Source: an uncultured Butyrivibrio sp. (lineage in GTDB: Bacteria > Bacillota > Clostridia > Lachnospirales > Lachnospiraceae). Taken from it: DNA of 47,695 nucleotides. Positions 16,776 through 41,811 of the stretch are shown one piece after another. A program made the position numbers and the translations under genes. The notes under the pieces were generated by a model. That model ran no database searches. It was not told the DNA's origin and was given only the letters and a program-made list of their open reading frames with translations. Where the stretch lies: contig CAMNOS010000005.1 of NCBI GenBank assembly GCA_946546925.1, forward strand, positions 1 to 47,695, written 5' to 3'. Position 1 is the first letter of the stretch. Each line of letters begins with the position of its first letter.

Positions 16776-16814
16776 ATAAAAGAATGCATACCGATACCAT
16801 CAGTATGCATTCTT
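16776..16814 (-). terminator. Intrinsic terminator overlapping the end of the priming-transferase gene
   Basis: AAGAATGCATAC pairs with GTATGCATTCTT in a perfect 12-bp stem (16780-16791 with 16803-16814) around an 11-nt loop, followed on the minus strand by TTATACTT. The 5' arm is formed by the last four codons of the gene and the loop begins with its TGA stop. It separates that gene from the LCP gene. Confidence 0.75.
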
Positions 16815-19321: not shown

Positions 19322-20758
19322 TCAGATATCCAGACGTTTTATAACCTTCGGATCCCACATGACTCTGAGACAGCGCCTGTGTACTTCCTCTCCGAAAGCC
19401 ACGCTCATTGAAGCAATTTCTTCTTCAGTGAAATTCTCCCACATCCTGTCGGATGATGTGTCAGCCTCTTTTCTGTCCTTCTTGTCGCGGACGAGGTGGA
19501 AGGTGTCCACGTATTTCACACCGGTGATCTGTTCAAATACCGGGATAAGTTCACTCCTTACAGCGATACATCTTATATCGACTGCATATCCGTCCTGCTG
19601 CAGGACAGCTCTGTGCTGAAGTCCGCCCGAGAAGCCTTCCGGGAGACCCTTATACACCAAGGTCTTATCCTTTTTATACATCCCTCCGCACAGTCTGTTC
19701 TTCTTATCAATTATCTTGCCGCCCACGCATCCAAGGTCAGGGCGCGACAAAAAGATATCTCCCTCATAATCAAGTCTGTAGAAGCCCACATGTTCAAGGT
19801 CTTTGGCCTCTGCCGCAAGGGCATAAGTATCTGCAAACTTCTGAAGTGCCTTCCGTCCGGCCTCATAGGCATAGGTCTTACTGGCAGGATTGGAGGCGGT
19901 AGAATCTTCATGGCATCGCCAGTGATACAGAACCTTCCCTATATGTACGATCTGGCTTGAAGCCTGAGGCATCAGAAGTACGGCCTCTGCGCAGACCCTG
20001 AGAAAAAGATCGTAGTCCTGAGCCCCGTCATAGTCCTTGCGCAGCTTGTGCCTCTTGATCAGGTCTGACCGTATCATTGTAAAATGACAGATATAATTGT
20101 TGGACATAAGGTAGTCCATATTAAAAGCGGGCTTCTCGTGATGCTCATAAAAGCGCCTGCCCTCCCCATCCATCTTATCCTCATCGGAGTAGATAAGCCT
20201 TATGGGGAGGCCCGCATATTTCACCAGCTTATTCTTGGACATGCTCTTTCTGATGACTCTCGACATCTCATAGAGCGCATCAGGCGTCAGCACATCATCA
20301 TGGTCAAGCAGTCCTATGTAATCGCCGCTTGCCTTCTCAAGTCCCCTGTTGGTGTTCTCAGAAATACCGGCGTTCCTCTCAAGATGGAAATACCTTATCC
20401 TCGGATCCACTTTGGTATACTCCTCAATCACCTTCAGAGGTTCCGGGGATGCGTCACACAGTATCAGCTCCCAGTTGCCGTAGGTCTGGGCGACCACCGA
20501 ATCTATCATCTCTCTCAGATACTTCTCAGGGGTATTATAAAGAGGAACAACTATGCTAAAGCGAAGGTAGCATCCCGACTCTGCAAGGAACTTGTACTCC
20601 TCACGCTGCTCTTTTAACACTTCATCTGTCAGGGGAACGAAAGTGTAGTCATCATTTTTGTTGTCTGACATTCTCTCAAGGGCAGCAAAAAATGCGGCCC
20701 TTCCACCATTGCGTTTTGCGTATGCAATTGTTTTGGAGACCGCATTTTTTATATTCAT
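19322..20758 (-). CDS. GT2 glycosyltransferase with C-terminal accessory region
   Basis: A 478-residue protein. Residues about 60-290 form a GT-A domain: FSIVVPLYNTPEKYLREM, LLDHDDVLTPDALYEM (the D-H-D-D metal motif) and YDGAQDYDLFLRV with the acidic base. KVLYHWRCHEDSTASNP closes it. The remaining 180 residues lack a second complete GT2 domain. They contain FLSRPDLGCVGGKIIDKK and LCGGMYKK, which resemble the middle of a GT2 fold. So the gene may be a shortened relative of the tandem-domain proteins upstream. The GLLDHDD and YNTPEKYLR motifs are very close to those of the 685-residue protein, suggesting duplication within the locus. Donor and acceptor are unknown. Confidence 0.82.
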   Translation of the reverse strand: MNIKNAVSKTIAYAKRNGGRAAFFAALERMSDNKNDDYTFVPLTDEVLKEQREEYKFLAESGCYLRFSIVVPLYNTPEKYLREMIDSVVAQTYGNWELILCDASPEPLKVIEEYTKVDPRIRYFHLERNAGISENTNRGLEKASGDYIGLLDHDDVLTPDALYEMSRVIRKSMSKNKLVKYAGLPIRLIYSDEDKMDGEGRRFYEHHEKPAFNMDYLMSNNYICHFTMIRSDLIKRHKLRKDYDGAQDYDLFLRVCAEAVLLMPQASSQIVHIGKVLYHWRCHEDSTASNPASKTYAYEAGRKALQKFADTYALAAEAKDLEHVGFYRLDYEGDIFLSRPDLGCVGGKIIDKKNRLCGGMYKKDKTLVYKGLPEGFSGGLQHRAVLQQDGYAVDIRCIAVRSELIPVFEQITGVKYVDTFHLVRDKKDRKEADTSSDRMWENFTEEEIASMSVAFGEEVHRRCLRVMWDPKVIKRLDI

Positions 20759-20798: not shown

Positions 20799-22538
20799 TC
20801 AGCCCACTACCTTCTTAACTGCATCTGTGAGTTCATCCTGGAGCTTGGCTGCATCCTCGAGGTTCTTGCCCTTAACGCCCATGTAGAACTTGATCTTGGG
20901 CTCTGTTCCTGAAGGTCTTGCACAGCACCATGCATCATTATCAAGTGCAAAGTAAAGTACGTTGGAAGTAGGAAGTCCTGTGTCACCCTCTGCTCCGGTA
21001 GCCATGTCAACAGTCTTGTGGGTCTTGTAATCCCTGAACTGCTCAACCTTCCACTGTCCAAACTCCTTGGGAGGATTGGAACGAAGTCTGTCCATAAGAG
21101 CTGCGATCTGCTCAGCGCCTTCCTTGCCCTTCATGGTGATGGAGTACTGACCTTCCTTGTAGTAGCCGTACTTCTCATAAATATCGATCATGGCATCCCA
21201 TACGCTCTTGCCCTGCTTCTTGTAGAAAGCAGCAAGCTCGCAGAGCATCATAACTGCCACAACGGCGTCCTTGTCTCTTGCATGTGTTCCTGCAAGGCAG
21301 CCATAGGACTCCTCAAGACCAAATACATAGTTGTTGCACTGGCCGTTCTGTTCAAAGAGCTTTATCTGCTCTCCGATATACTTAAATCCGGTCAGGACCT
21401 CAATGTACTTAAGCCCGTAGTTCTCAGCAACCGCCTTGGCCATATTGGTGGTAACAATGGTTGTAACAAAAGCAGGATTCTCAGGCATTGTACCTGTTGC
21501 CTGTCTCTCTCTGAGAATATAGTCACCGATCAGCATTCCTGACATGTTGCCTGTGAAAGCAACATACTCGCCGGTCTTAAGGTCCTTGGCATAAATGCCA
21601 AGTCTGTCTGCATCGGGATCTGTAGCAAGAACGATATCCGCATCCTTCTCTTTAGCCAGCTTAAGAGCCAGTTCAAAGGCCTTGGGATCCTCAGGATTAG
21701 GATAAGCAAGAGTTGTGAAATCGGGATCCGGTTCTTCCTGCTCAGGAACCACGAATACATTCTTGAAGCCAAGCTCCTTCAGGACACGTCTTACAGGAAG
21801 ATTACCTGTTCCGTGGAAAGGAGTGTAAACGATGGTGAACTTGTCAGCCATCTCATCGATAACATCCTTGTGGATGATCTGCTTCTTGAGCTCTACCATG
21901 TACTTGTCATCAATTTCCTCACCAAAGGTCTCATAGAGGCCTGCTGCAATGGCGTCTTCCTTGGACATGGTCTTAACTTCGTGATAATCAGTGATAGCAA
22001 CTACTTCATCGATAATACCGGTATCGTGTGGCGGTGTAACCTGTGCGCCGTCTTCCCAGTATACCTTGTATCCGTTATATTCAGGAGGATTGTGGGATGC
22101 TGTAACCATAACGCCGGCTATGCATCCAAACTCTCTGAGTGCAAAAGAAAGCTCAGGAGTAGGCCTTAAGATATCGCTGACATAGGCCTTGATGCCATTG
22201 GCTGCCAGACAAAGCGCTGTCTCATCCGCAAACTCAGGTGAAAATCTTCTGCAGTCATAGGAAATTGCAACACCCTTCTTAGGTGCGTCAGGTCCACCGT
22301 GTTTCTTGATATAATTGGCAAGACCCTGAGTTGCTTTTCTTACAGTGTACTTGTTCATTCTGTTGGTGCCGGCTCCGATAACACCTCTAAGTCCACCTGT
22401 GCCAAATTCCAGTTCTCTGTAAAATCGGTCCTCAACCTCTGCCTCATCATTCCTGATGGCCAAAAGCTCTTTCTTGGTCTCATCGTCGAAATACTCGTCA
22501 TTTAACCAGTATTCCAGCTGCTTTGTTGCTTCGCTCAT
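20799..22538 (-). CDS. Phosphoglucomutase/phosphomannomutase (alpha-D-phosphohexomutase)
   Basis: Interconverts hexose 6-phosphate and hexose 1-phosphate, supplying glucose-1-phosphate for dTDP-glucose (rfbA) and UDP-glucose synthesis. The 579-residue protein has Ser148 in the phosphoserine motif TASHNPPEYNGYKVYW, the Mg-binding ATDPDADRLG near 310-320, a sugar-binding GLEESYG motif and the C-terminal phosphate-binding RPSGTEPKIKFY. It matches the PgcA-type long phosphoglucomutases of Firmicutes in size and order. The ATG follows AAGGAGGGA, one of the strongest ribosome sites here, with a separate promoter just upstream. The location among glycosyltransferases fits a precursor-supply role. 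Confidence 0.92.
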   Translation of the reverse strand: MSEATKQLEYWLNDEYFDDETKKELLAIRNDEAEVEDRFYRELEFGTGGLRGVIGAGTNRMNKYTVRKATQGLANYIKKHGGPDAPKKGVAISYDCRRFSPEFADETALCLAANGIKAYVSDILRPTPELSFALREFGCIAGVMVTASHNPPEYNGYKVYWEDGAQVTPPHDTGIIDEVVAITDYHEVKTMSKEDAIAAGLYETFGEEIDDKYMVELKKQIIHKDVIDEMADKFTIVYTPFHGTGNLPVRRVLKELGFKNVFVVPEQEEPDPDFTTLAYPNPEDPKAFELALKLAKEKDADIVLATDPDADRLGIYAKDLKTGEYVAFTGNMSGMLIGDYILRERQATGTMPENPAFVTTIVTTNMAKAVAENYGLKYIEVLTGFKYIGEQIKLFEQNGQCNNYVFGLEESYGCLAGTHARDKDAVVAVMMLCELAAFYKKQGKSVWDAMIDIYEKYGYYKEGQYSITMKGKEGAEQIAALMDRLRSNPPKEFGQWKVEQFRDYKTHKTVDMATGAEGDTGLPTSNVLYFALDNDAWCCARPSGTEPKIKFYMGVKGKNLEDAAKLQDELTDAVKKVVG

Positions 22539-22632: not shown

Positions 22633-24690
22633 TTACTGATTTCTCAGGCTCGAGTAGCCCTCCACGTTCAGACTGAAGTCGCTTCTGTCCAGAGAGAAAT
22701 TGGGGTTGTAGTATGGGTCCCCCTTCTCAATAACTTCCTTCCACTTGCTGCGGAAATGCTCGGACTCCTTGTTGTAGCGCTCAGCATTTTTGCCCTCAAG
22801 GTCGAGGCCTCTTGACAATGATTCATAGTGATAGAGCTCCGCAAAGGGAGTGAACACGTTGAGATACCCTTTTTCTCTGAGCTTCAGGCAGAAGTCCACA
22901 TCATTGAGGCTGACTGCAAAGCCCTCGTCAAAGCCTCCCACTTCGTCGTACTTGGCCCGGGAGATCATAAGGCATGCGCCGGTAACAGCGCTGACATCCT
23001 GGGCATAGCAAAGGCGCCCCATGTAGCCAAGATTCATGCCTGCCTGTCCGTAGTGTGAATGTCCTGCTGTTCTGTGGGCTCCAAGGCCTATAACAACACC
23101 GGCATGCTGGATCTTCCTGTCAGGAAAGTAGAGCTTGCCGCCAACTGCGCCTACATCACTTCTCTGGGCATACATCAGAAGCTCCTCGATCCAGTTTACG
23201 GTAATGACCTGCGTATCATTGTTTAAAAGAACTATATACTCCCCGGAAGACTGTCTTACTCCGTAGTTAACAACAGCAGAATAGTTAAAGCCATCCTGAC
23301 TTATACTGTTTTGGGAAGCCCATCCGGTGTAGTCCACAACCTTTACAATATCCTTAAGAGCTCCGTTTGCAAGTTCCTCATAGTAACTGCGAATCTCAGA
23401 GCCTTTGGAGTTGTTCTCCACCACGATGATCTCGTAGTTGTCGTAAACAGATTTCTCGTATATGGAATCTATGCACCTCTTGAGATCCTGCGCATGCTCG
23501 CAGTTGGGAATAACTATGGATACCCTGGGCGTTCCCTGAACCTCATAGGTGATCTTAAATATGGTCTCAAAGGCCCTGGTGCTTGTAATCTTAAAGTGAT
23601 CATAGCCGTGTCTTCTGAGGTGATCCGCAACAGCTCCCTTGGCTGCCTCTATGGCATAAGGCTTTGCCGAGATGTCAGATGCCACAGAGCCCGCATGGCT
23701 TCTCCAGTAGTACAAAAGCTTTGGCACATGCACTATGTGCTGTGCCCTGTCAGTAAGGCGCAGTATCATATCGTGGTCCTGGCTTCCGTCAAATTTGGTC
23801 CTGAACAGCTCCGTTCCGTCAAGAAGTGTCCTCTTAAATACACTGAAATGGCAGATATAGTTATTGGCACGAAGGTTGTCAATGGCATAGTCGGGCTTGA
23901 AGTGCATGGTGATCATCCTGTTGATGTCATCACCCTTAAAGGTGGTCTCATCACAGTAGATATAGTCCGCATCCTGCTCATTTATGGCCTTGACATACCA
24001 GTACAGAACCTCCGGATGAAGAATATCATCGTGGTCAAAAAGACCTATGTATTCTCCGGTTGCAAGTTCAAGACAATGATTAGTATTGCCTGCGATGCCT
24101 TCATTTTTCTCAAGCTTCTGATAGACGATCCTGCATGATGATCCCGCCGCATCTGCAAGTGCTCTTGCATCCTTCTGATATTCCTTAACAATCGAAAAGA
24201 CCTGTGCCTGATGTTCCGGATCAGACCCATCTGCAAGGCAGAGCTGCCAGTTGTGATATGTCTGTGTCAGCACTGATTCCACCATGTCCCTGAGGAACTT
24301 CTCCGGTGTGTTGTACAGCGGTACCAGAATGGATATCAGAGGCATCTTCTCAAATACAGCGCTCTCCTGCTGCCTTCTGGTCTCTTCAGACGGAAAGCTC
24401 TCAGTGCCGTAATGGATCATGGCCTTTTTCTCTATCTGCTTGTACTTAATCTTGGCAATGACCCCTCTCAAAGACCCTTGATTTCTGATGCGGTCCCTCT
24501 GCCTGATGACCCAGTGCATGGCGTTTCTTGCAGGAGTCGAAGCCTTCCAGATAGGATTGCTCTTGATCCTGTTCAGTTTAAACTCCAGCTCCTGATTCTT
24601 GTCTTCAAGCTCGGCTATTCGGCCGGCCAGGTCTGCAGTCTTTAATTTTTCCCGCTCATAGGCGGCTTTGTAGTCAAGTTCATCTGACAT
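22633..24690 (-). CDS. Tandem-domain GT2 glycosyltransferase
   Basis: A 685-residue protein with an N-terminal coiled coil (about 5-45) and two full GT-A domains. Domain 1 (about 117-375) has ISILVPLYNTPEKFLRDMV, GLFDHDDILHPEVLYWY and FDGSQDHDMILRL. Domain 2 (about 392-650) has VSIVIPNCEHAQDLKRCIDS, VVENNSKGS, VLLNNDTQV, and FAVSLNDVDFCLKLREKGY with the catalytic acidic pair. Such double enzymes can add two different sugars in turn or build a repeating disaccharide. The coiled coil may serve in assembly or as a spacer. The start has ATGAGGAAAG upstream. The leader contains a copy of the 3' end of the neighbouring gene (see the 17-bp repeat entry). Confidence 0.88.
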   Translation of the reverse strand: MSDELDYKAAYEREKLKTADLAGRIAELEDKNQELEFKLNRIKSNPIWKASTPARNAMHWVIRQRDRIRNQGSLRGVIAKIKYKQIEKKAMIHYGTESFPSEETRRQQESAVFEKMPLISILVPLYNTPEKFLRDMVESVLTQTYHNWQLCLADGSDPEHQAQVFSIVKEYQKDARALADAAGSSCRIVYQKLEKNEGIAGNTNHCLELATGEYIGLFDHDDILHPEVLYWYVKAINEQDADYIYCDETTFKGDDINRMITMHFKPDYAIDNLRANNYICHFSVFKRTLLDGTELFRTKFDGSQDHDMILRLTDRAQHIVHVPKLLYYWRSHAGSVASDISAKPYAIEAAKGAVADHLRRHGYDHFKITSTRAFETIFKITYEVQGTPRVSIVIPNCEHAQDLKRCIDSIYEKSVYDNYEIIVVENNSKGSEIRSYYEELANGALKDIVKVVDYTGWASQNSISQDGFNYSAVVNYGVRQSSGEYIVLLNNDTQVITVNWIEELLMYAQRSDVGAVGGKLYFPDRKIQHAGVVIGLGAHRTAGHSHYGQAGMNLGYMGRLCYAQDVSAVTGACLMISRAKYDEVGGFDEGFAVSLNDVDFCLKLREKGYLNVFTPFAELYHYESLSRGLDLEGKNAERYNKESEHFRSKWKEVIEKGDPYYNPNFSLDRSDFSLNVEGYSSLRNQ

Positions 24691-24881: not shown

Positions 24882-27002
24882 TCATGTCCTTGCGTCCTTT
24901 ATTCTCATCACGTTGGGGATCCAGTTTATCAGTTTGGTGCGGCTGGTCTTGTCCACTGCCAGCATTCCTATCTGATAGTAGCCGGGGGGCAGAAGGCCCT
25001 TCTCTATTCTGAGCTTGTACCCCGTGAGGTCTACGTTGACCTGGTCCTGAAGCCTTATCTTTATGTCGGGCCGGTACCAGATATATGGAGCAAAGCTGTA
25101 GACTTTGGGGCCTACAGGACCTGCTCCGTCCTCAAATCTCTCCACCAGGCGAAGAAGGATCTTTTTCTCAAAGCAGGCATTGTCTGAACCTATGACAAAG
25201 CTGTACCCTTTAAGGAAATATCCTTCTGTATTTCCCTCTGCTGTCGGGCCGTACAGCCAGTTGTCCATTGAGCCGTTGTACTCGCAGCCAACTCTAAGGC
25301 ACTGATCCTCTCTTGCTCCTTTTATGCCCCTCTCGTGGATCGTGACCGCGCCGTATGGAAGATCCTGAACGGCTGTATAGTCTTCTCTTGGGATGATGGC
25401 CGAAATGGTCTCATCCTCGGTAAGGTGCGGTGAGTAGAAAGGATCAATGTTATACAGATGGGCATGCCTTGTCATGAGAAGATCTCCCTCCCGGGAAAGT
25501 CTCTCCATCTTCTGGGGATCAAGATTATCAAGTCCCCTGGTGAGGGACTCGTGGTGATTCAGGTAAATGTGGTTACAGCACACATTATAGTAGCCCTTCT
25601 CATGGATCTTGTAGCACAGGTCCACGTCGTTAAAGGCAACAGCAAGGTCCTCGAAAAAACCTCCCGCATCCAGGAATTTCTTCCTGCTGACCATAAGACA
25701 TGCTGCCGTAGCCCCGATTGTGTTGTGTATTCCTCTGTTATAGCCAAAGTAATGGCTCTTATTATCGTGCATTTTCTGGAGCTTGTGAACAGGGCCACGC
25801 CTTACGTTGGCAATCCCTGCATGCTGAATTAGGTCAGTTCCGGGATAGATGAGCTTTGTCCCGACGACTCCCACATGCTTGAGCTGAGCCTGAGACAGCA
25901 TCTCACGCATCCAGCCTTCTTTGACACATTCTATGTCATCATTCATGAAAAGAAGATACTCGCCGGAAGAATTCTTAACGCCCTCGTTACACATATTTGA
26001 AAAGTTGAAGTCCTGGAGCCTGTAGATATAATTTATCTTCACAAGCCCGTTCTTTCTCTCTGCGCGGCTTGCGTAAACTCCGTATTTTACACGGTTTGTC
26101 GCGCTCGAACCGTTGTCCAGTACAACAATGTCATATTTAATGTTGTCGTCACCGCTAGTTGCGATTATTGAGTCAAGGCACTGCCTGAATAATTCAGGAT
26201 GGTCCTTGGATGGGATGATAATGCTGACCGTTGCCGGTGCAAGCAGCATATGCTTTGATGAATGGAATGCCCTGCCATAGAAGATATCCTGCTCAGGACT
26301 TCTGTGAAACAGAACTTCCCTGATATGGCCGATTGGAAACTCCAGCCCCACTCTTTTTGCAAAGGCATGCTCATGTATTGCAAGCATGCAGAACAGGACA
26401 TCTGCAGACAAAAGAGATGCCTCCAGCCCCACCTGCTCTATAGTGCCCCTTTTGCCCGCTGTACCTCCAAGCATCTTGACCGCATTGTCATATTCACCGG
26501 CACAGGCGTGCATGGCAGTTGCTCTGCAGGCAAAAAAGCTCCCGATGTAATATCCGTTCAGGTACGAGTCCGGAGACCAGTCAGGCTTGAAATACGGGTG
26601 AATGTACTTACCGCCTGCCCCAATTTCGTCCTCGTCACCATAAACAACGTTGTGCTCTGGATGGGCAATAAAGTACTGTTTGATCACTTCCGCAGCCCGC
26701 CTTGAAAGCTTCCCCTTGGGACTTACAAACAGATACACAGTGTTGTCATCGCTTTTATTGTTCTGAACCTCCCACACCTTGCCGTACGGAACTACCCTGA
26801 CGTGTGGCGACGGAAGTCTTTCCGCAGTTTTCTCTGCGCCGTCTTCCCCTTCATACACTAAAGGCGCAGCTGCGACCGGCACCGGTTCTTTTTCCACTGC
26901 ATGCTGCCACTTGTCATAGGCAGAGGATTTGACGGCAAGAAGCTTATTGTATTTTTTAATCTGTCTTTTTACCAGCGATGTCTTGGCCAGCTCTTTTAAC
27001 AT
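24882..27002 (-). CDS. GT2 glycosyltransferase with a degenerate first domain and C-terminal beta domain
   Basis: A 706-residue protein. Residues 1-40 are basic and helical. Residues about 85-245 look like the second half of a GT2 fold, with VVYGDEDEIG, HPYFKPDWSPDSYLNGYYIG and a HRSPEQ end, but no N-terminal nucleotide-binding half. Residues about 258-510 form a complete GT-A domain: VSIIIPSKDHPELFRQCLDS, VVLDNGSS, FMNDDIE (354-357 region) and FNDVDLCYKIHEKGY. Residues about 520-706 form a beta-rich accessory domain (PPGYYQIGMLAVD), perhaps carbohydrate-binding. The stop overlaps the 17-bp direct repeat. It starts six bases after the methyltransferase-kinase gene with AAGGGGAT. Confidence 0.85.
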   Translation of the reverse strand: MLKELAKTSLVKRQIKKYNKLLAVKSSAYDKWQHAVEKEPVPVAAAPLVYEGEDGAEKTAERLPSPHVRVVPYGKVWEVQNNKSDDNTVYLFVSPKGKLSRRAAEVIKQYFIAHPEHNVVYGDEDEIGAGGKYIHPYFKPDWSPDSYLNGYYIGSFFACRATAMHACAGEYDNAVKMLGGTAGKRGTIEQVGLEASLLSADVLFCMLAIHEHAFAKRVGLEFPIGHIREVLFHRSPEQDIFYGRAFHSSKHMLLAPATVSIIIPSKDHPELFRQCLDSIIATSGDDNIKYDIVVLDNGSSATNRVKYGVYASRAERKNGLVKINYIYRLQDFNFSNMCNEGVKNSSGEYLLFMNDDIECVKEGWMREMLSQAQLKHVGVVGTKLIYPGTDLIQHAGIANVRRGPVHKLQKMHDNKSHYFGYNRGIHNTIGATAACLMVSRKKFLDAGGFFEDLAVAFNDVDLCYKIHEKGYYNVCCNHIYLNHHESLTRGLDNLDPQKMERLSREGDLLMTRHAHLYNIDPFYSPHLTEDETISAIIPREDYTAVQDLPYGAVTIHERGIKGAREDQCLRVGCEYNGSMDNWLYGPTAEGNTEGYFLKGYSFVIGSDNACFEKKILLRLVERFEDGAGPVGPKVYSFAPYIWYRPDIKIRLQDQVNVDLTGYKLRIEKGLLPPGYYQIGMLAVDKTSRTKLINWIPNVMRIKDART

Positions 27003-27008: not shown

Positions 27009-29174
27009 TTAATCCCACTCCTCGTCTTTGTAATACCTGGCTTCGCGCTTTTCTTTGAGCTTTCTCCCGATTCTCCCAAGGATATTTTCTTTTTGAACAA
27101 CTCCGGCAGTCTCCTGTGTGTGCACAGACTCAGCAATTGCATCTGCAGAGTTCCTTGGAATTATCGTTGTCAAAAGAGAAAGCCTTAAATGATTTCTCGA
27201 CTTCCCACCTGCCGTCTCCTCAGAAACTCCGAATTCAATGTTCGGATCATCGGAATTGAAAACAAATGTGTCATCTGATATCCACTCCCCATTTACCGGA
27301 TGAATGGAAATGTTGGTTGACGAATCAGAGAGCGACCTGTCATTCCAGGTGGCATCCTGAATCGTGACAATACACGGAGCAAATGCCGGGTCAACCCTGA
27401 CCATCCTGCAATCCGGGGATACCTTGATGTCAAGTTCTATAACATTGTTGTCATCGTACTGCTCCTCAGGGAAAACTGACTCGTCCTCCGAGTACCCTTC
27501 ACCCTCGTCAAAGTATATCTGAACGCAGTCATCAGGTCTGGCAGCATCAGCGCCGCCCTGAAGTTCCTTAGGAACGATCGTCTTTCTTCCTATTCCACGC
27601 CAGATCTCAACCATGGATTTTCTGCTGCCCGTAACATATTTCTGGAAAGCATACTCCTCCTCAAGAAGCTCCTGCATCTCTTTGTCAGAAAGACCAAGGC
27701 GCTTTAATACCGGCTTGGGATCGAAGTGCTCCCTCTTCCTGTCTTCAAGCCTGTAACAGTAGAGTGCCCTCCATACCTGCTCCTTGACCGGAATGCATTT
27801 TCCATAGGTCCACTCGTAATCTATTATTGTCCATATCGGACCATTGACCATGACATTGGAAAAGATAAGGTCGTAATCAGATACGGGATAATCCGGCTTG
27901 TATCCAATTCTCTTTATATACTCATTGAGCAGTGCCTCAAAGGCCGCACTGTCATCCCTGTCAATGCACTGATCAAGCAGCGCCGAAAGCGGAACGCCAT
28001 TGACAAAAGAAAAGATAGCACAGCCCTCCTGTTCACTGATCTGGCAGTCATTGATCTCAAGGTCTCCGCCTCTGAACTTCTCATAGAGTCCCAGATACGC
28101 ATCCCTGAGTCCGTAGACGTGCTCTTTGGCAGCCTCTGTCAGAGGGAACTTCTTGATGACCTTCCTGCCTGCAATATCAGTTGCAATGTCAGTCCTTATC
28201 TTGAATTCATCAACCCTGTCGTTGGAATACTTGCAGTAGATGGTATCAAAACCGGGTCCCAGAATGACTTCAAAGGAATTGGCAAACTCCGGATACATGC
28301 CCTCCCGTACGAGTTCTTCGTAGGCATGCTTTTCATTGAACAGAACAAGCCTGTCCCTGTCGAAGTTCCTGACGTTGTCCAAAAGCTCGCCGTGTCCGGG
28401 AAGATACTTATCCGAATGTAAAAGAGTCATAAGCTTGTAGTCAGGATAAGGATAGTAGAAGTGATACTCATTCATCCCGCATTTCTTGAAAATGTTGATG
28501 AGACCGTTCCTGGAAAAAGTCCTTGCGACGGAATCAGCGGAATACCCTTCGATTCCCGTAAAATAGCTGCCCAGATGATCCTCGGCGCAGCCTGCGAAAT
28601 ACTTAAGGCCAAGTCTGTTCTCAATGGCGATAACGATCCTTCCGCCTCTCTTAAGGTGGCGCTTAAGCATCATAAGAAACTTCTCATAGGGGCTGTCAGT
28701 CCCGATGTATCCCTGACCGTACTCAAAAACTCCTATGAGGAAAATATAATCAAAATCTCTTGAAAGATCAGGCTCTATATCCCTGAAATTGCCCACGTGA
28801 ATAGTGACATTGTCACAGTCGGCGTTTCTCGTTGCGTTGATTTCCGAGCGGCGGCGGGACAGATCGCAGGCCACGACTTCACCGGCCTTTTTGGACAGCA
28901 TGCCCGTTATTGCGCCGCACCCTGAACCCACTTCAAGGACCTTGGATCTGGGATCCATAGGTATCCACTCAACGATATTAGAGCGCTGTTCAGACAGATG
29001 ATACAGTATAGGCCAGCTGTTCCTCTCCTCTATCACCTTCTGGTAATCCTCTTTTTTATATTTTTTGACTATTTCAAGAAGATCGTTCTCAATGCTTCCG
29101 TCACTGTAGAGATCTACTCCCGAATAGTGCTTGAAATTAAGGCTCACGCCCCCAATCTTAACTTCTTCTGTCAT
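27009..29174 (-). CDS. Methyltransferase/kinase-like bifunctional protein with beta-sandwich C-terminus (possible chain terminator)
   Basis: A 721-residue three-part protein. Residues about 55-250 are a class I SAM methyltransferase: VLEVGSGCGAITGML (motif I, 79-93), VVACDLSRRR (101-109), FDYIFLIGVFEYGQGYI (141-157) and GGRIVIAIENRLGLKYF. Residues about 320-530 resemble a phosphotransferase of the APH/protein-kinase superfamily: GRKVIKKFP with a candidate ATP-binding Lys, DYDLIFSN (433-440; catalytic Asp435 and Asn440) and IDYEW (451-455; metal Asp452). Residues about 575-690 look beta-rich. The start overlaps the wzt stop by four bases (ATGA). Methyltransferase plus kinase coupled to Wzt is the arrangement of the O-antigen terminator WbdD; similarity to that is by architecture and context, not proven homology. 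Confidence 0.75.
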   Translation of the reverse strand: MTEEVKIGGVSLNFKHYSGVDLYSDGSIENDLLEIVKKYKKEDYQKVIEERNSWPILYHLSEQRSNIVEWIPMDPRSKVLEVGSGCGAITGMLSKKAGEVVACDLSRRRSEINATRNADCDNVTIHVGNFRDIEPDLSRDFDYIFLIGVFEYGQGYIGTDSPYEKFLMMLKRHLKRGGRIVIAIENRLGLKYFAGCAEDHLGSYFTGIEGYSADSVARTFSRNGLINIFKKCGMNEYHFYYPYPDYKLMTLLHSDKYLPGHGELLDNVRNFDRDRLVLFNEKHAYEELVREGMYPEFANSFEVILGPGFDTIYCKYSNDRVDEFKIRTDIATDIAGRKVIKKFPLTEAAKEHVYGLRDAYLGLYEKFRGGDLEINDCQISEQEGCAIFSFVNGVPLSALLDQCIDRDDSAAFEALLNEYIKRIGYKPDYPVSDYDLIFSNVMVNGPIWTIIDYEWTYGKCIPVKEQVWRALYCYRLEDRKREHFDPKPVLKRLGLSDKEMQELLEEEYAFQKYVTGSRKSMVEIWRGIGRKTIVPKELQGGADAARPDDCVQIYFDEGEGYSEDESVFPEEQYDDNNVIELDIKVSPDCRMVRVDPAFAPCIVTIQDATWNDRSLSDSSTNISIHPVNGEWISDDTFVFNSDDPNIEFGVSEETAGGKSRNHLRLSLLTTIIPRNSADAIAESVHTQETAGVVQKENILGRIGRKLKEKREARYYKDEEWD

Positions 29175-30514
29175 TTTTCATTCTCCAAAACCGCATCCTT
29201 CACTTCACAGGTCGATCCCATGTCGTAGTAGCCGACTGTATTCTTGTCGGAGACAACCGTAACATTGAGCGCATCGTAAAGTCTGTGATAGACCGTAAAG
29301 TCGTTCTGCTCAAAACCTGTGACTCCAAAGCTCAAGAGGTATTCCCCTCCCTGCAGCGACATCTTCTGGGTAAAAGAGATGTCTTTAACATCACCTGCAT
29401 TTACGGGGTCAAGAAAAGCTTTCTCCACCATGGAATTGGTCCCCGTTATCTCTATTCCCATGATGTTCTTGAATGTAAAGGCAAATATTGGCGCCGCCAC
29501 ATCTTTGGTGAATTTAACCCTCATGTGGACAGTGAAATCAGCCCCCTTTATTATTGAATTCACACGCCTGCCGGAATCGTCTGTCACATAGTAATCCGTT
29601 ATTGATGCTGCCCCGTCGCCGTATTCCAGAAGATCCGGGTTTTCTGCCTCATTTGCAGGTGCAGCCCAAGGCTTTGCGGATTCACTTTTCTGAGTCCTGT
29701 CCGCAGCTCTGGCTGCAGCATCTCTTATCTCCTCGTCATCGAGAAGATTTGCGGTATCACTCTTTGGAAGCGGATACTGCCCGACCAGTACCTGCTTGTA
29801 GATATCTATCATCTTCTTGGGGGTTCCCTCTCCAAGAAGAACTCCCTGATTCAGAAGGACCGCCCTGTCACAGTACTTGCTGATGCTGGACAGATCGTGT
29901 GACACAAAGAGTATTGTCTTTCCCTGTTCCTTGAATTCCTCAAACTTGTGATAGCACTTAGCCTGAAAAAAAACATCTCCGACGGAAAGCGCTTCGTCGA
30001 CGATAAGGATCTCAGGATCAATGTTGATGGCAACTGCAAAAGCAAGCCGGACAAACATACCGCTGGAGTAGGTCTTGACAGGCTGATAAACATAATCTCC
30101 GATATCAGCAAACTCCAGGATCGCATCAAGCCTCTTTGTGATCTCCTCCTGAGAAAACCCGATCATCATACCGTTTAAGTAGATGTTATCTATGCCGTTG
30201 TACTCCATGTTGAAGCCGGCGCCAAGTTCCAAAAGTGCCGAAATATGTCCGTCAACATTCACCTCGCCGGATGTGGGGGAAAGAACTCCTGTAATAATCT
30301 TGAGGATTGTCGACTTTCCCGATCCGTTAGTCCCGATGATCCCGACAGTCTCTCCTTTTTTCACCGAGAGCGTAACATTGTTGAGCGCAAGATGTTCCTT
30401 GTACTTGCGCTTTCTTGCAAGTCCGAGGGAATCTTTCAGCCGGTCCATGGGTTTATCATAAAGCTTATATATTTTTGTCAGATTTTTAACTTCAATTGCT
30501 GTATCCTGAGTCAT
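29171..30514 (-). CDS. wzt: Polysaccharide ABC exporter ATPase with C-terminal cargo-binding domain (Wzt-like)
   Basis: A 447-residue protein. The ATPase domain (about 1-245) has Walker A GTNGSGKST (61-69), the signature YSSGM (149-153), Walker B ILIVDEA (169-175) and an H-loop in FVSHD. The form is close to the TagH/RfbB/KpsT group. Residues about 300-447 match the position and character of Wzt C-terminal domains: a beta-sandwich beginning ITDYYVTDDSGRRVN and ending near VTVVSDKNTVGYYD. In E. coli O8/O9a systems this domain binds the modified non-reducing end of the polymer before export. The acidic/Ala linker is about 260-300. It pairs with the permease 96 bases upstream. Confidence 0.9.
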   Translation of the reverse strand: MTQDTAIEVKNLTKIYKLYDKPMDRLKDSLGLARKRKYKEHLALNNVTLSVKKGETVGIIGTNGSGKSTILKIITGVLSPTSGEVNVDGHISALLELGAGFNMEYNGIDNIYLNGMMIGFSQEEITKRLDAILEFADIGDYVYQPVKTYSSGMFVRLAFAVAINIDPEILIVDEALSVGDVFFQAKCYHKFEEFKEQGKTILFVSHDLSSISKYCDRAVLLNQGVLLGEGTPKKMIDIYKQVLVGQYPLPKSDTANLLDDEEIRDAAARAADRTQKSESAKPWAAPANEAENPDLLEYGDGAASITDYYVTDDSGRRVNSIIKGADFTVHMRVKFTKDVAAPIFAFTFKNIMGIEITGTNSMVEKAFLDPVNAGDVKDISFTQKMSLQGGEYLLSFGVTGFEQNDFTVYHRLYDALNVTVVSDKNTVGYYDMGSTCEVKDAVLENEK

Positions 30515-30610: not shown

Positions 30611-31609
30611 CTATAGTACATCCGCAAAATGGGGCTTACTGCGCTTGAATATCAGTGTTCCCAGACAGAAAGCAGCTACCACAAAGATCCAGAAATATGT
30701 AGATGAGTAGAAGTGCTCAAAAAACCAGGTGTCACCGTAAATGGAATTTCTGAAGCCCTCAACGATGTAAGTCATTGGATTGAGCTTGACAAGCCACTTG
30801 TATTTGTCGGGAACAATGTCAATATTCCAAAGAATCGGAGTAGCCCACTGAAAGAGCTGCAGACCTATGGATATTATCTGCAGAAGATCCCTGAAGAATA
30901 CCACGATGGCGCAGGTGGCATAGCTGAGAGAGAGCACAAGAATGAACTCGCAGCCCATGTAATATATTATCTGCAGCCAGTATATAGTCGGATAATAGCC
31001 GTATATGCAGGCTATCAGCATCAGCACAAACGTGAAAAACACATGAATGAACATGGCTGCTATTATTTTGATGATCGGCAGTATGCTTATTTTGAAGAGA
31101 ACTTTTTTAACCAGATAGTTGTACTCAAGAAGCGATGTGGTTCCGTTGGTAAGAGCTTCTGAAAAAAAGAACCAGGGAACAAGTCCGGCCGTAAGAAAAA
31201 GCACATAAGGAACCTCTGCTCCGCCTGAAACCGCCTGCGCTCTGGACTGAAATACGATGTCAAAGACAATGTAGTACATTACAACAGTGACTACAGGTTG
31301 GGCAAGTGCCCAGACAATTCCCATGTATGAACCTGCATAGCGCTTTTTGAAATCATTGATTGCAAGACGTTTGATCAGGTTCCTTGAATGGAAGAGTTCC
31401 ACAGGCAGCACAAGTAATCTGTCATACCACAAATACACCAAAATGCAGCTGATACCGATAAGTAAACAGCCGCATATTTTTTTGAGCATGGCAGTATGCG
31501 CATCCTCCAATGGATTATTATGAAAGATCAACAGAAGCGCCAGCATGAGGGCCAGTGCATAGAAAATCCCAAGTACCACCGACTTGGAAGATCTCAACTT
31601 CTCTCCCAT
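30611..31609 (-). CDS. wzm: Polysaccharide ABC exporter permease (Wzm/TagG-like)
   Basis: The 332-residue membrane protein exports a lipid-linked glycan together with the Wzt-like ATPase. Two extra N-terminal helices (about 8-30 and 42-62) precede the usual ABC-2 core. The core is marked by LIKRLAINDFKKRYAGSYMG, VWALAQPVVTVVMYYIVF and four further helices, with LNPMTYIVEGFRNSIYG before the last one. The start chosen is the ATG at 31609, whose A is the last base of the rfbC stop (TGATG). A GTG at 31633 is possible but would overlap rfbC by 25 bases. GGGGAGGA lies about 14 bases upstream. The start choice is uncertain; function is not. Confidence 0.9.
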   Translation of the reverse strand: MGEKLRSSKSVVLGIFYALALMLALLLIFHNNPLEDAHTAMLKKICGCLLIGISCILVYLWYDRLLVLPVELFHSRNLIKRLAINDFKKRYAGSYMGIVWALAQPVVTVVMYYIVFDIVFQSRAQAVSGGAEVPYVLFLTAGLVPWFFFSEALTNGTTSLLEYNYLVKKVLFKISILPIIKIIAAMFIHVFFTFVLMLIACIYGYYPTIYWLQIIYYMGCEFILVLSLSYATCAIVVFFRDLLQIISIGLQLFQWATPILWNIDIVPDKYKWLVKLNPMTYIVEGFRNSIYGDTWFFEHFYSSTYFWIFVVAAFCLGTLIFKRSKPHFADVL

Positions 31610-32154
31610 CAAAGCTCTTTTATTCCTCCCCACCTGGTATCCTTATCAGAGAAATTAAGCTCCACGCCCTCCTGAAGAGGCCAGTCAATTCCTATATCCG
31701 GATCGTTCCAGATAAGTCCTCCCTCGTCGTTGGGATGGTAAAAATCCGAACATTTGTAAGCAAATTCTGCGTAATCAGAAAGCACAAGAAAGCCGTGTGC
31801 AAATCCCTTTGGAATAAAGAACTGCTTCTTGTTCTCAGCACTTAATACAACGCCAAACCACTTGCCGTATGTAGCAGAACCTTTTCTTAAGTCAACAGCA
31901 ACGTCAAAGACCTCGCCGTTTATGCAGCGAACCAGCTTGTCCTGAGGAAACTCCTTTTGAAAATGAAGGCCTCTGAGCACCCCTTTTTTGCTGGCAGACT
32001 GATTGTCCTGAACAAACTCACAGGTGATGCCGGCTTCCACAAAGTCATTCCTGTTGTAAGTCTCTACAAAATAGCCTCTGGCATCGCCGAACACCTGAGG
32101 TGTTATGACCTTTAGTCCCTCTATCTCACATGTTTCTACAGTTATCTTTCCCAT
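31609..32154 (-). CDS. rfbC: dTDP-4-dehydrorhamnose 3,5-epimerase
   Basis: RfbC (RmlC) epimerises dTDP-4-keto-6-deoxyglucose at C3 and C5, the third step to dTDP-L-rhamnose. The 181-residue protein has the cupin motifs ARGYFVETYNRNDF, QSASKKGVLRGLHFQ with catalytic His64, the KLVRCINGEVFDVAVDLRKGS stretch read as separate strands, GFAHGFLVLSD, and NDPDIGIDWPL near the end. Length is normal. The ATG is preceded by AGGAGAAACG, an 11-base spacing that is a little long. It is followed by the exporter permease with a TGATG junction, so polymer precursor synthesis and export are translated together. rfbD, needed to finish dTDP-rhamnose, is not in the window. Confidence 0.93.
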   Translation of the reverse strand: MGKITVETCEIEGLKVITPQVFGDARGYFVETYNRNDFVEAGITCEFVQDNQSASKKGVLRGLHFQKEFPQDKLVRCINGEVFDVAVDLRKGSATYGKWFGVVLSAENKKQFFIPKGFAHGFLVLSDYAEFAYKCSDFYHPNDEGGLIWNDPDIGIDWPLQEGVELNFSDKDTRWGGIKEL

Positions 32155-32819: not shown

Positions 32820-33689
32820 TCACAGTCCGTTAGCAACTTCAACAAGATATTTGCCGTAATCGGTCTTCATCAGCGGCTCAGCGAGCTTAAGAAGCTGCTC
32901 CTTGTCAATGAAACCTCTCTTGAACGCAATCTCCTCGATACAGGAGATGTACAGTCCCTGCCTCTTCTGAAATGCGCAGACAAAATCAGATGCATCAAGA
33001 AGGGAATCATGACTTCCCGTGTCGAGCCATGCAAATCCACGACCCATAGTCTCAACAGAAAGTTCGCCTCTTCTTAAGTACTCGTTGTTGATGCTTGTTA
33101 TTTCAATCTCACCCCTTGGTGACGGCTTGACATTTCTTGCGATCTCAACAACCCTGTTGTCATAGAAGTAAAGGCCCGGAACAGCATAATTGCTCTTTGG
33201 CTTCTCCGGCTTCTCCTCTATACTGATCGCTTTGCCGTTTTCATCAAACTCAACAACACCGTATGCCCTTGGATCTCTTACGTAGTAGCCGAAGATTGTA
33301 GCACCGCTTGTTCTTGATGCCACTTCTCTAAGAAGCTTGGAAAAGCTCTGTCCGTAAAAGATATTGTCGCCAAGGACAAGAGCTACTGAATCGGAACCGA
33401 TAAAGTCTGCGCCGATTATGAAGGCATCCGCCAGTCCTCTCGGCTGATCCTGTACAGCATATGAAAATTTCATGCCAAGCTGCTCTCCACTGCCAAAAAG
33501 TTCCTCAAAGGCCGGCAGATCCCTGGGCGTTGAAATTATAAGAACCTCTCTTATTCCTGCCAGCATAAGTGTTGACAGCGGATAGTATATCATCGGCTTG
33601 TCATATACAGGCATCATCTGCTTTGACATAGCTCTTGTGAGCGGATACAGTCTTGTTCCCGATCCTCCCGCAAGTATTATACCCTTCAT
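32820..33689 (-). CDS. rfbA: Glucose-1-phosphate thymidylyltransferase
   Basis: RfbA (RmlA) makes dTDP-glucose from dTTP and glucose-1-phosphate. The 289-residue protein starts [17 protein letters not shown] with the nucleotide-binding G-rich loop. It has [27 protein letters not shown] with the metal-binding Asp, [37 protein letters not shown], and [16 protein letters not shown]. All are diagnostic, and the size is typical of the homotetrameric long form. The start at 33689 follows AAAGGAG; the longer in-frame extension lacks one. It lies 45 bases downstream of rfbB, with a hairpin between them. Confidence 0.95.
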
Positions 33690-33713
33690 ATAGAACTCCT
33701 TTCTTTTCGATAC

Positions 33714-33736
33714 AAGGATTGCTCCGCACAATCCTT
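33714..33736 (-). repeat. Small palindrome between rfbB and rfbA
   Basis: AAGGATT pairs with AATCCTT (7 bp) around GCTCCGCAC, overlapping the rfbB stop codon. No T-run follows, so it is probably not a terminator. Its core (TGCGGAGCAATCC, minus strand) differs at one base from TGCGGAGCGATCC in the element at 24691-24881, suggesting a shared repeat family or mRNA-processing hairpin. Confidence 0.55.
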
Positions 33737-34817
33737 ATACCGTGTACATCTTTTCGTAGTATTTCTCATAGTCGCCGCTTGTTACATGTTCCATCCACTC
33801 TGAATTGTCAAAATACCACTTGATGGTCTTGCGGATGCCATCTTTGAACATTGTCTCAGGCTCCCAGCCAATCTCTGCCTTGATCTTGTCAGGAGCGATG
33901 GCGTAGCGGCGGTCATGGCCTTTTCTGTCTTCAACATAAGTGATCAGGTCATAGTTCAGATGTTCCTTCCTCGGGTCAGAGTCATCGAGTTCCTCGCGAA
34001 GTATGTCTATGATAGTCTTAACTATCTCAATGTTCTGCTTCTCATTGTGTCCGCCAACATTGTATGTTTCAAAAAGACGTCCCTTCTCCTGCACCATGTC
34101 TATAGCCTTGGCATGATCCTCAACATAGAGCCAGTCCCTGACATTCTTGCCGTCACCGTAAACGGGAAGCTTCTTGCCTGCAAGGGCATTGTGAATGATG
34201 AGCGGGATCAGCTTCTCCGGGAACTGGTAAGGTCCGTAGTTGTTGGAGCAGTTGGTTATGTTCGCCGGGAACTTATATGTGTCCATATACGCCTTCACAA
34301 GCATGTCTGAGCTTGCCTTACTTGCGGAGTAAGGGCTGTGAGGTGAATATGGTGTTGTCTCATAGAAGAATGCATTGGGATCATCGTCCAGAGATCCGTA
34401 GACCTCATCCGTAGATACATGAAGGAACTTCTTGCCCTGCCTGTATGTTCCGTCCTCGTTCTCCCAGGCCTTTTTGGCGGCATTGAGCATTGTAGCCGTA
34501 CCAAGAACGTTGGTCTCAACAAATATCTCAGGATTTACAATGGATCTGTCAACGTGGCTCTCAGCCGCAAAATGTACAACTCTGTCGATGTCGTTCTCTG
34601 CAAAGATCCTGTCTATAGCTGCCCTGTCGCAGATATTGGCCTTTACAAAGGTATAATTGGGGTTGCCCTCCAGATCCTTGAGATTCTCAAGATTCCCTGC
34701 ATAAGTAAGGGCATCCACATTGATGATGCGAATCTCGTCACCATATTTTTTGAACATATAATGAATATAATTTGAGCCGATGAACCCGGCACCTCCGGTT
34801 ACAAGATAGGTTTTCAT
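33735..34817 (-). CDS. rfbB: dTDP-glucose 4,6-dehydratase
   Basis: RfbB (RmlB) converts dTDP-glucose to dTDP-4-keto-6-deoxyglucose with bound NAD. The 360-residue extended SDR protein has TGGAGFIGSNY (7-17), VVHFAAESHVDRSI, HVSTDEVYGSL with the catalytic Asp/Glu, PYSASKASSDMLV with the Tyr-Lys pair, and NCSNNYGPYQFPEKLIP. The start at 34817 is supported by AAAGGAAAAG and by the family N-terminus MKTYLVTGG; the longer frame would cross the promoter. It is the first gene of the rfbB-rfbA-rfbC-wzm-wzt run, behind a terminator and a probable promoter. Confidence 0.95.
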   Translation of the reverse strand: MKTYLVTGGAGFIGSNYIHYMFKKYGDEIRIINVDALTYAGNLENLKDLEGNPNYTFVKANICDRAAIDRIFAENDIDRVVHFAAESHVDRSIVNPEIFVETNVLGTATMLNAAKKAWENEDGTYRQGKKFLHVSTDEVYGSLDDDPNAFFYETTPYSPHSPYSASKASSDMLVKAYMDTYKFPANITNCSNNYGPYQFPEKLIPLIIHNALAGKKLPVYGDGKNVRDWLYVEDHAKAIDMVQEKGRLFETYNVGGHNEKQNIEIVKTIIDILREELDDSDPRKEHLNYDLITYVEDRKGHDRRYAIAPDKIKAEIGWEPETMFKDGIRKTIKWYFDNSEWMEHVTSGDYEKYYEKMYTV

Positions 34818-34852
34818 ATCTTTTCCTTTCTTTTCATAGTTAATCACAGTAC

Positions 34853-34881
34853 AGTATAACACATTCCCTCTTATAACACAA
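34853..34881 (-). promoter_or_regulatory. Possible rfbB operon promoter
   Basis: On the minus strand TATACT (34853-34858) is preceded by TGT, making an extended -10 (TGTTATACT). A weak TTGTGT lies at 17-bp spacing (34876-34881). It starts right after the GH25 terminator, where a new promoter would be needed. Confidence 0.5.
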
Positions 34882-34907
34882 AAGGCAGGAGCCAAAAGCC
34901 CCCGCCT
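34876..34907 (-). terminator. Intrinsic terminator of the GH25 gene
   Basis: On the minus strand AGGCGGGGGC pairs with GCTCCTGCCT (34883-34907; ten pairs, two of them G-U) around a five-base loop, followed by TTTTGTGTT. It lies 34 bases past the stop codon. Confidence 0.82.
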
Positions 34908-41782: not shown

Positions 41783-41811
41783 GTTAGTCTGCTCCGCAAA
41801 TACCAAAAAAA

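Follow-up and report, generated by a model that had tools for sequence, protein, structure and literature searches.

A probable Gram-positive chain terminator of the Klebsiella O7 methyltransferase-kinase type, encoded next to a cap-binding Wzt

Introduction

Capping of a polysaccharide chain by phosphorylation followed by methylation has so far been proven in bacteria such as Klebsiella. For ORF6 of Klebsiella pneumoniae O7 (MN173773.1), both kinase and methyltransferase activity were proven in vitro, a D441A substitution gave no product, and an Ig-like CBM was predicted to follow the kinase (JBC 2024, PMC11231755). A methyltransferase and a kinase are likewise combined in WbdD of Escherichia coli O8/O9a and Klebsiella O3; as described in the accessible part of PMC3482155, its presumed methyl-phosphate cap is read by Wzt, the protein carries a C-terminal coiled-coil ruler and its system is built on mannose. 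A Gram-positive precedent is WsaE of Geobacillus stearothermophilus, which the accessible part of PMC2943079 presents as a rhamnan terminator composed of a methyltransferase and two GT domains, encoded by a gene overlapping wzt and adding a 2-O-methyl cap, with no kinase described there. At the transporter, the Wzt-CBD of Aquifex aeolicus binds the cap, with Trp362 stacking on its methyl group (accessible part of PMC9445017). Here we compare these systems with a lachnospiral locus in which a methyltransferase-kinase-like protein is encoded directly after wzt.

Results

The window, by which we mean the whole 47,695-nucleotide stretch analysed, comes from a rumen bacterium and carries all features given below with coordinates on its minus strand. 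A preliminary description of this DNA had placed the start of a 721-residue protein inside the stop codon of wzt. This was confirmed: the terminator candidate P0001 (27009..29174; 721 aa; methyltransferase, kinase-like and C-terminal domains, assigned from the ORF, Pfam and homology) and the Wzt P0002 (29171..30514; 447 aa; ABC ATPase and Wzt_C, from the ORF and Pfam) share positions 29171..29174, where the plus strand reads tcat, so that the ATG start and the TGA stop overlap as ATGA. Upstream of wzt are a Wzm permease (30611..31633; ABC2_membrane in Pfam) and the genes rmlC (31609..32154), rmlA (32820..33731) and rmlB (33735..34895), which scored above the cut-offs of TIGR01221, TIGR01207 and TIGR01181, respectively. 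The rmlABC genes adjoin the terminator and export genes, and the genome carries rmlD on another contig, C2. Beyond P0001 follow two GT2 proteins, GTa (24882..27002) and GTb (22633..24690), then a member of the phosphoglucomutase/phosphomannomutase family (20799..22538; Pfam), the GT2 proteins GTc (19322..20758) and GTd (18286..19266; both from Pfam), a WcaJ-type undecaprenyl-phosphate glucose phosphotransferase assigned to initiation (16800..18206; TIGR03023 above cut-off), an LCP-family glycopolymer transferase assigned to attachment to the wall (15257..16684; PF03816, and TIGR00350 above cut-off) and the GT2 protein GTe (14258..15196; domain scan). The presence of the initiation and LCP genes points to a wall polymer as the probable product, unlike the LPS of Klebsiella O7. 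As noticed earlier, no Wzy was seen: Wzy and Wzx families had no match among 30 window proteins scanned with Pfam and 20, partly the same, scanned with NCBIfam, with a few window ORFs outside the scan. Two DltB-like MBOAT proteins, other possible tailoring enzymes, are also encoded in the window. A literature search found no glycan structure for the window organism; the R. gnavus glucorhamnan, with its 1,2- and 1,3-linked rhamnose, is one polymer that a locus of this kind might conceivably make.

The class I methyltransferase of P0001, recognised in the preliminary description, was supported by Pfam and by conservation in 138 sequences. The domain spans residues 1-305 (28260..29174), with a Methyltransf_12 match at residues 80-180 (E 2.2e-9), and it keeps motif I (EVGSGCG, 81-87), EDH (198-200) and PDYK (244-247). 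Both motif I glycines are retained in 131 of the 138 aligned sequences; motif I is lost in L061 and L171, and one of its glycines is replaced in L035, L065 and L170. All five of these lineages still carry D-x4-N and D-x-E-W, the kinase motif described below. No GT domain was detected in P0001 with Pfam or NCBIfam.

Over most of its length, P0001 is collinear with O7-type proteins across the methyltransferase, the kinase and the domain that follows. In a 7-sequence database, blastp aligned residues 23-642 with residues 28-634 of a 1457-aa protein of P. asturiensis at 26% identity (E 2e-43). Furthermore, hhalign matched the terminator profile A1, built from the window protein and 29 relatives from a 200-genome survey, to the O7-type profile A5 with probability 100 and E 8e-64 over residues 22-652; another alignment, A2, was made without nine loci (L072, L077, L080, L081, L088, L089, L114, L129 and L145). 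We classify the P. asturiensis protein as O7-type by its sequence because the published ORF6-O7 residues Y28, Y66, G91, G93, E112 and Y158 fall on identical numbers in it, and the comparison of P0001 with ORF6-O7 runs through these published numbers and the P. asturiensis protein instead of the ORF6-O7 sequence. All six residues are invariant in A5, and the spacing from D-x-D-D to N-x-D is 257 in the P. asturiensis protein versus 255 published for ORF6-O7. These SAM-site residues correspond to Y23, Y58, G83, G85, D104 and Y152 of P0001, with D104 as the one exception, where O7 has E.

The motifs DYDLIFSN (433-440) and IDYEW (451-455), also pointed out before, lie in a kinase-like domain at residues 306-545 (27540..28259), delimited by sequence alignment and profiles. 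Within this domain all 33 rows of the kinase alignment A3, the window included, share K342, D435, N440, D452, E454 and W455. The pattern D-x4-N ... D-x-E-W was present in 35 of 36 relatives examined, the exception being C. braakii with E for the second D, and K342 has no conserved Lys counterpart in three Gram-negative proteins. When the kinase regions alone were compared (A3 against A4), hhalign gave probability 98.4 and E 4e-15 and aligned D435 with the O7-type Asp; by way of P. asturiensis D443, the codon at 27870..27872 would thus specify the equivalent of the catalytic D441 of ORF6, at nearly the same residue number. Searches of single Gram-negative proteins with the kinase HMM gave weak values in tiny databases (P. 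asturiensis 2e-7, E. coli 3e-5, C. braakii 0.045). No Pfam kinase model matched P0001 and NCBIfam named no kinase there; over the 33 kinase regions, Pfam found APH in one and choline kinase in one. Searched against the PDB, the kinase profile best matched eukaryotic protein kinases, with weak similarity to JAK kinases at E 0.0009 (2.4e-5 when the profile covered the whole protein). The C-terminal domain (residues 546-690; 27105..27539) falls where ORF6 is predicted to have its Ig-like CBM. Searched alone among 4 sequences, it matched the P. asturiensis protein weakly (E 5.6e-5), and no counterpart was detected in the other two O7-type proteins. The tail behind it is some 31 residues long, so that a coiled coil is absent from P0001 by length.

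P0001 thus resembles the N-terminal half of ORF6, with its methyltransferase, a kinase of about 220-240 residues and a further domain at the CBM place. The two systems also share a rhamnose polymer, a Wzm/Wzt partner and a related GT2 pair. Unlike ORF6, P0001 belongs to a Gram-positive host and is a separate polypeptide that carries neither coil nor GT modules. Compared with O7-type proteins, GTa showed 28-32% identity to their GT half (Pfam and blastp) and GTb 38-39% to their C-terminal half over about 565 aa. By sequence comparison and Pfam, GTb consists of an N-terminal coil of about 45 residues, a WKxSTPxR segment and two GT2 modules. As this other O7 half, with its short coil and two GT2 modules, is encoded apart from P0001, two genes downstream, the terminator lacks the coiled-coil ruler that WbdD and O7 carry within the one polypeptide; the coil is located on the GTb polymerase and not on the terminator. 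The coil-like stretch (GTb residues 5-45; 24556..24678) was judged from heptads by eye, as a coiled-coil score failed to separate O7-type linkers, used as positive controls, from shuffled sequences. Of 90 GTb-like ORFs, the 34 measured were those with the start motif.

A survey of wzt neighbours in the Lachnospiraceae found the pair to be conserved. At E <= 1e-10, a terminator match was present in 102 of 200 family genomes (one per genus), more than chance would produce, and Wzt_C was present in 99 of these 102 versus 22 of the 98 others. In raw counts that ignore phylogeny, 99 genomes had both, 3 the terminator only, 22 Wzt_C only and 76 neither. Two genomes tallied as Wzt_C-only, G081 and G178, are threshold misses, since the ORF immediately following wzt there bears a kinase; in the terminator-only genomes G076, G186 and G188, no cap-domain Wzt was found in the DNA stretch retrieved. 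A Wzt with the C domain lies directly upstream of the terminator in 72 of 78 loci (80 minus 2 without a called terminator ORF) and in 35 of 39 loci of a second set, three loci being common to both. Relatives seldom show the exact ATGA overlap: the same four bases overlap in only 3 of 80 (L131, L146 and L147), most others having a spacer and 7 rows lacking the wzt end.

The extra C-terminal domain of Wzt, which the preliminary description had linked to cap recognition, proved to be a genuine Wzt_C (PF14524; Wzt residues 297-432; 29219..29626; E 1.9e-40). Its best PDB match was E. coli O9a Wzt-C (2R5O; E 3e-23). The window Wzt retains Asn313 of Aquifex, but the place of the methyl-stacking Trp362 is taken by Arg411 (codon at 29282..29284, by alignment), and O9a Wzt-C also has Arg in this column. 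Counted as sequences, with phylogeny ignored, Arg occupied this place in all 116 Wzt encoded at terminator loci (113 distinct sequences), including those beside a degenerate methyltransferase, and in 3 of 3 O7-type Wzt. In 20 other lachnospiral Wzt_C domains examined, the residue was Tyr (13), Phe (6) or Trp (1). These counts cover 19 of the 22 Wzt_C-only genomes (G007, G124 and G160 were left out) and three second Wzt_C copies from terminator-positive genomes (G034, G094 and G110); in L179 and L194 the sequence ends just after wzt, with the next gene out of reach.

Discussion

A protein predicted to combine a methyltransferase with a phosphotransferase and coupled to a cap-binding Wzt is best explained as a chain-end capper. 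We consider it probable that P0001 represents, in a Gram-positive bacterium and in split form, the methyltransferase-kinase terminator known from Klebsiella O7, capping for Wzt-read export, and its most likely function would be to place a methyl-phosphate cap, read by Wzt, on a terminal rhamnose. This view draws on the domains, homology and conservation observed, on the order and co-occurrence of the genes and on the covarying pocket. Regarding chemistry, acceptor sugar, reaction order, length control and wall attachment, we infer the following course. The WcaJ-type transferase would start a lipid-linked, rhamnose-rich glycan in the cytoplasm, which GTa, GTb and other GT2 enzymes would extend. 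The kinase domain, with D435 as its catalytic residue, may then phosphorylate the non-reducing terminal rhamnose, and subsequent methylation of this phosphate by the methyltransferase domain would stop extension. Binding of the capped end by Wzt_C, with Arg411 in place of the Aquifex Trp, would license export by Wzm/Wzt, and the LCP protein would attach the exported polymer to the wall.

The preliminary description had taken WbdD as its model for a chain terminator. The capper coupled to Wzt_C and the conservation of the pair stood, and neither of two contrary results, a Wzt C-terminal region unrelated to Wzt-C or a pair missing from related loci, was obtained, but the model was not supported. 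An orthologue of WbdD, that is, a member of the E. coli O8/O9a family with a eukaryotic-type kinase and a polymannose substrate, would account for the same order of methyltransferase and kinase, for a Wzt_C nearest in the PDB to that of O9a and for the eukaryotic protein kinases at the top of the kinase-profile matches. None of the 60 kinase-profile PDB matches up to E 10 was named WbdD, however; these searches, judged by molecule name and not by direct comparison with the WbdD sequence, detected no kinase relation. With P0001 collinear with the O7-type proteins, rhamnose genes in place of mannose genes and no C-terminal coil, this already disfavoured reading is very improbable. Two wzm-wzt searches matched 226 and 229 E. 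coli genomes, and the O9a wbdD was not among the three regions opened: L154 is a locus with a GT99 gene, L155 has no P0001-like protein and L156 encodes an O7-type protein.

WsaE shares with P0001 a Gram-positive host, a terminator gene overlapping wzt, a rhamnan and GT modules in the locus, and its methyl cap is predicted to be Wzt-read (both from the accessible part of PMC2943079). Combined with the lack of a Pfam kinase match in P0001, this could suggest a pseudokinase or a sugar-binding domain in place of an active kinase, and mere O-methylation of the terminal rhamnose. This we regard as unlikely, as none of the 33 rows departs from D435, N440 and D452, which are presumed to serve catalysis and metal binding, the lineages with a lost or altered motif I keep D-x4-N and D-x-E-W, and the Wzt pocket has Arg, unlike the methyl-cap Wzt of Aquifex. 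Those same lineages, which also keep the Wzt Arg, together with the incomplete in vitro methylation by O7 (PMC11231755), would fit an export signal of phosphate alone, with a methyltransferase that acts elsewhere or weakly here; as P0001 keeps motif I, EDH and PDYK, and both glycines persist in 131 of 138 sequences, we hold this to be quite unlikely. Finally, the site of modification is not dictated by any sequence feature, and with the MBOAT proteins as possible tailoring enzymes in the window, (methyl)phosphate might be added to repeat units along the chain and not to its end alone, Wzt_C recognising something else. Such internal tailoring is made improbable by the place of the terminator immediately behind wzt (72 of 78 loci in one set, 35 of 39 in the other), by its tight co-occurrence with Wzt_C, by the covarying cap pocket and by the homology to a proven terminator, O7 ORF6.

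Length control of wall polysaccharides in Gram-positive bacteria is still largely an open question. If the O7-type reading is true, about half of the sampled genomes (102 of 200), from relatives of bacteria abundant in gut and rumen, would cap and export a surface rhamnose polymer, using methyl-phosphate capping as known from Klebsiella O7 but with the terminator freed from the ruler. The reading also predicts the chemistry of the polymer end, as well as which residue of the transporter recognises it. We tentatively suggest, as a possibility that we rate somewhat below even, a cap code in Gram-positive exporters: Arg at the Wzt position of Aquifex Trp362 would go with a kinase-bearing terminator and a (methyl)phosphate cap, and an aromatic residue with a kinase-less methyltransferase and a methyl ether, while the terminator would act in trans, with a measuring coil on the polymerase and a length control unlike that of the terminators in the O7 paper. 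An apparent counterexample to this code was L205, where a methyltransferase-only gene stands beside a Wzt with Arg. It is no evidence against the code, because the next gene there codes for 546 aa in which a kinase-like loop can be made out by eye, TRDLIPRNILV ... IVDFD (kinase HMM E 0.17), along with an LRLDP domain and a coil. As a separate observation, the locus L190 looks WsaE-like.

Relationship of the terminator candidate to O7-type proteins

The reading frames of the terminator candidate P0001 and of the Wzt were both found where the preliminary description had placed them. P0001 (721 aa) occupies positions 27009-29174 on the minus strand and starts inside the wzt stop codon, the claimed ATGA overlap being visible in the sequence. 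Pfam bore out the proposed class I methyltransferase at residues 80-180 of P0001 (E 2.2e-9), as well as the extra C-terminal domain ascribed to Wzt, a 447-aa protein matching ABC_tran and Wzt_C, the latter at residues 297-432 (E 1.9e-40). No kinase family of Pfam or NCBIfam matched P0001.

Annotated plasmids searched for relatives of P0001 yielded five records, and in both of the two strong ones the matching gene directly follows wzt. O7-type proteins of Pseudomonas asturiensis (1457 aa) and Citrobacter braakii (649 aa) were obtained in this way, and a third such protein (1279 aa) is encoded on an E. coli chromosome. Rhamnose and ABC-transporter polysaccharide clusters were also seen on plasmids of C. 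braakii (L153, conjugative) and E. coli (L155). In the P. asturiensis protein, a methyltransferase is followed first by a kinase-like domain and a further domain, then by a linker and two GT2 modules, the same layout as described for Klebsiella O7 ORF6 (PMC11231755). According to that paper, a rhamnose acceptor was phosphorylated and partly methylated in vitro by the N-terminal half of ORF6, and the D441A variant was inactive. The published SAM-site residues (Y28, Y66, G91, G93, E112 and Y158; PMC11231755) recur in kind and number in the P. asturiensis protein, in which D441 corresponds to D443. P0001 is collinear with this protein over residues 23-642 (26% identity, E 2e-43 in a seven-sequence database), and its counterparts of the O7 residues are Y23, Y58, G83, G85, D104, Y152 and D435. 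When the profile of the P0001 family was compared with that of the O7-type proteins, the match extended over residues 22-652 (probability 100, E 8e-64), and the kinase region alone was matched with a probability of 98.4 (E 4e-15).

Six residues do not vary in an alignment of the kinase region (33 rows, including P0001): K342, D435 (the presumed catalytic Asp), N440, D452, E454 and W455. Of 36 proteins inspected, with the Gram-negative ones among them, 35 contain D-x4-N followed by D-x-E-W; the exception is the C. braakii protein, in which Glu replaces the second Asp. In the PDB, the kinase profile matched JAK kinases best (E 0.0009), in alignments that include the catalytic loop, and WbdD did not appear by name among its 60 PDB matches up to E 10. 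Two results count against the kinase reading: the Pfam families APH and choline kinase each matched only one of the 33 kinase-region members, and K342 has no conserved counterpart in the three Gram-negative proteins.

Apparent division between terminator and polymerase

The capping chemistry is already known from Klebsiella O7 and O3, and a Gram-positive methyl cap from Geobacillus WsaE (PMC2943079). The orthologues named in the O7 paper belong to alpha- and gammaproteobacteria, cyanobacteria and Methanoculleus, and the word Gram-positive is absent from its main text (PMC11231755). A literature search of limited reach found no methyltransferase-kinase terminator reported in Firmicutes. O7-type and WbdD proteins carry a coil in the same polypeptide, whereas a coil was looked for in P0001 and is absent, and P0001 is therefore not classed as a plain member of either group.

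Over ~565 residues, the GT2 protein GTb (22633-24690), which is encoded downstream of P0001, shares 38-39% identity with the C-terminal GT half of O7-type proteins; the second GT2 protein, GTa, is 28-32% identical to this half. GTb begins with ~45 heptad-like residues and a WKxSTPxR stretch, a start that by eye resembles the linker ahead of the GT modules in the E. coli O7-type protein. The motif is present in 29 of the 34 GTb-like ORFs measured, lying 45-57 residues from the start in 26 of these. Because GTb matches the O7-type GT half and has its own coil-like and WKxSTPxR start, O7 ORF6 appears to be split after the further domain and ahead of the coil, apparently leaving the terminator free and the coil with the polymerase GTb.

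Other arrangements occur among the fetched loci. Separate genes encode the methyltransferase and the kinase in L052, L056, L058, L063 and L064, the kinase gene of L058 also bearing two GT2 stretches, while L055, L061 and L065 combine methyltransferase, kinase and GT domains in a single ORF, and L060 has a 1890-aa ORF with methyltransferase and kinase. Another division of the same modules was seen at L205:4713-7390, adjoining a Wzt with Arg in its pocket: a methyltransferase gene precedes a 546-aa gene whose product combines a divergent kinase-like loop with a CBM-like stretch and a coil, the coil here being on the kinase protein. The CBM-like C-terminal domain of P0001, which recurs in other near-wzt proteins (L184, L187, L190, L202 and L206), seems to be a portable module.

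The Wzt pocket and the possible nature of the cap

In the cap-binding domain of Aquifex Wzt, the methyl group of the cap is held against Trp362 (PMC9445017). All 116 Wzt aligned from terminator loci have Arg at this column, as do three O7-type Wzt. Of the 116, 113 are distinct sequences; 104 lie no more than 300 bases from a terminator ORF and 12 were not so placed. In a comparison set of 20 other Wzt_C domains, of which 17 come from terminator-negative genomes and three are second copies in positive genomes, the residue is Tyr (13), Phe (6) or Trp (1). Arg is also present in 2R5O, the Wzt-C of E. coli O9a, which the Wzt_C profile matched best in the PDB (E 3e-23), and the O9a cap is a methyl phosphate (PMC3482155). 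An E. coli Wzt next to a GT99 gene has Gln, and among the Wzt fetched from other families of the phylum Arg is seen in L197, L198, L202 and L205 and His in L196. Sequence past wzt was available for 18 aromatic-pocket loci, and the scan of the gene after wzt covered 16 of them, all but L181 and L182. In eight of these (L180, L184, L185, L187, L190, L191, L192 and L195) it encodes a methyltransferase that has no Pfam kinase domain; the other eight have no methyltransferase as the gene after wzt. The kinase HMM matched weakly in L191 and L195 (E 0.003-0.008 among 20 sequences). The L190 gene (4152-7631) is WsaE-like, with methyltransferase and GT2 modules. A pairing of aromatic residues with methyl caps and of Arg with phosphate-bearing caps would agree with this pattern, but a contrast of one clade versus another is no proof of it, and in half of the scanned aromatic-pocket loci no methyltransferase occupies that place.

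A pure methyl cap is less likely, since the kinase motif is kept in lineages in which motif I of the methyltransferase is damaged. Both motif I glycines are retained in 131 of 138 aligned methyltransferase domains; motif I is gone in L061, L171 and L174, and one glycine is replaced in L035, L065, L170 and L200. L035, L061, L065, L170 and L171 have the kinase motif; in L174 and L200 it was not picked up by a pattern search. A phosphate-only cap would fit, and is possible, in some lineages with a degenerate methyltransferase motif. In L171 (9216-12905), L061, L065 and L170, a degenerate SAM motif and an intact kinase motif were observed next to a Wzt with an Arg pocket.

Gene order and distribution

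Conservation of the wzt-terminator pair in related loci, a check named in the preliminary description, held: immediately upstream of the terminator, 72/78 named and 35/39 unnamed loci encode a Wzt that bears the C-terminal domain, three loci being common to both sets. Four of the remaining 10 are at a contig end, five have wzt one gene further off, and in L067 no wzt was called. Among 200 genomes (one per genus), 99 had both terminator and Wzt_C, three the terminator only, 22 Wzt_C only and 76 neither (Fisher p 7e-31, phylogeny ignored). GTb lies at most three genes downstream of the terminator in 65/78 named and 30/39 unnamed loci. Near the terminator were also rmlA (60/78 and 28/39), rmlB (56/78 and 30/39) and rmlC (60/78 and 30/39); rmlD of the window's genome is on a separate contig. 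The WcaJ-type initiation enzyme and the LCP transferase of the window both scored above NCBIfam cut-offs.

P0001 matches (E <= 1e-10) were found in 102 of these 200 genomes, which are from Lachnospiraceae, some being the methyltransferase part alone. The named genome collection holds at least 546 stretches encoding relatives; the best 80 of these, from which the named loci were taken, are mostly from Lachnospiraceae, Butyrivibrio or Acetatifactor, and the nearest relatives among them are from Butyrivibrio (84-85% identity). Phylum-wide, 13 of 398 genomes had matches, the window's own counted, nine of them from other families; in three cases from other families the methyltransferase forms part of a fusion ORF of ~1260-1557 aa.

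Directly upstream of rmlB, the window encodes a 1021-aa protein (34941-38006) with a GH25 muramidase, Big_2 and choline-binding-type repeats, and similar proteins are found near rmlB in many fetched loci. Two DltB-like MBOAT proteins (40530-41806 and 45970-47412) scored below the NCBIfam cut-off for DltB itself; between or beside their genes are DUF6077, a GDSL-like protein and unnamed ORFs, a group that suggests O-acylation of a surface polymer. A uridine kinase gene (43821-44534) is located amid the surface-polymer genes.
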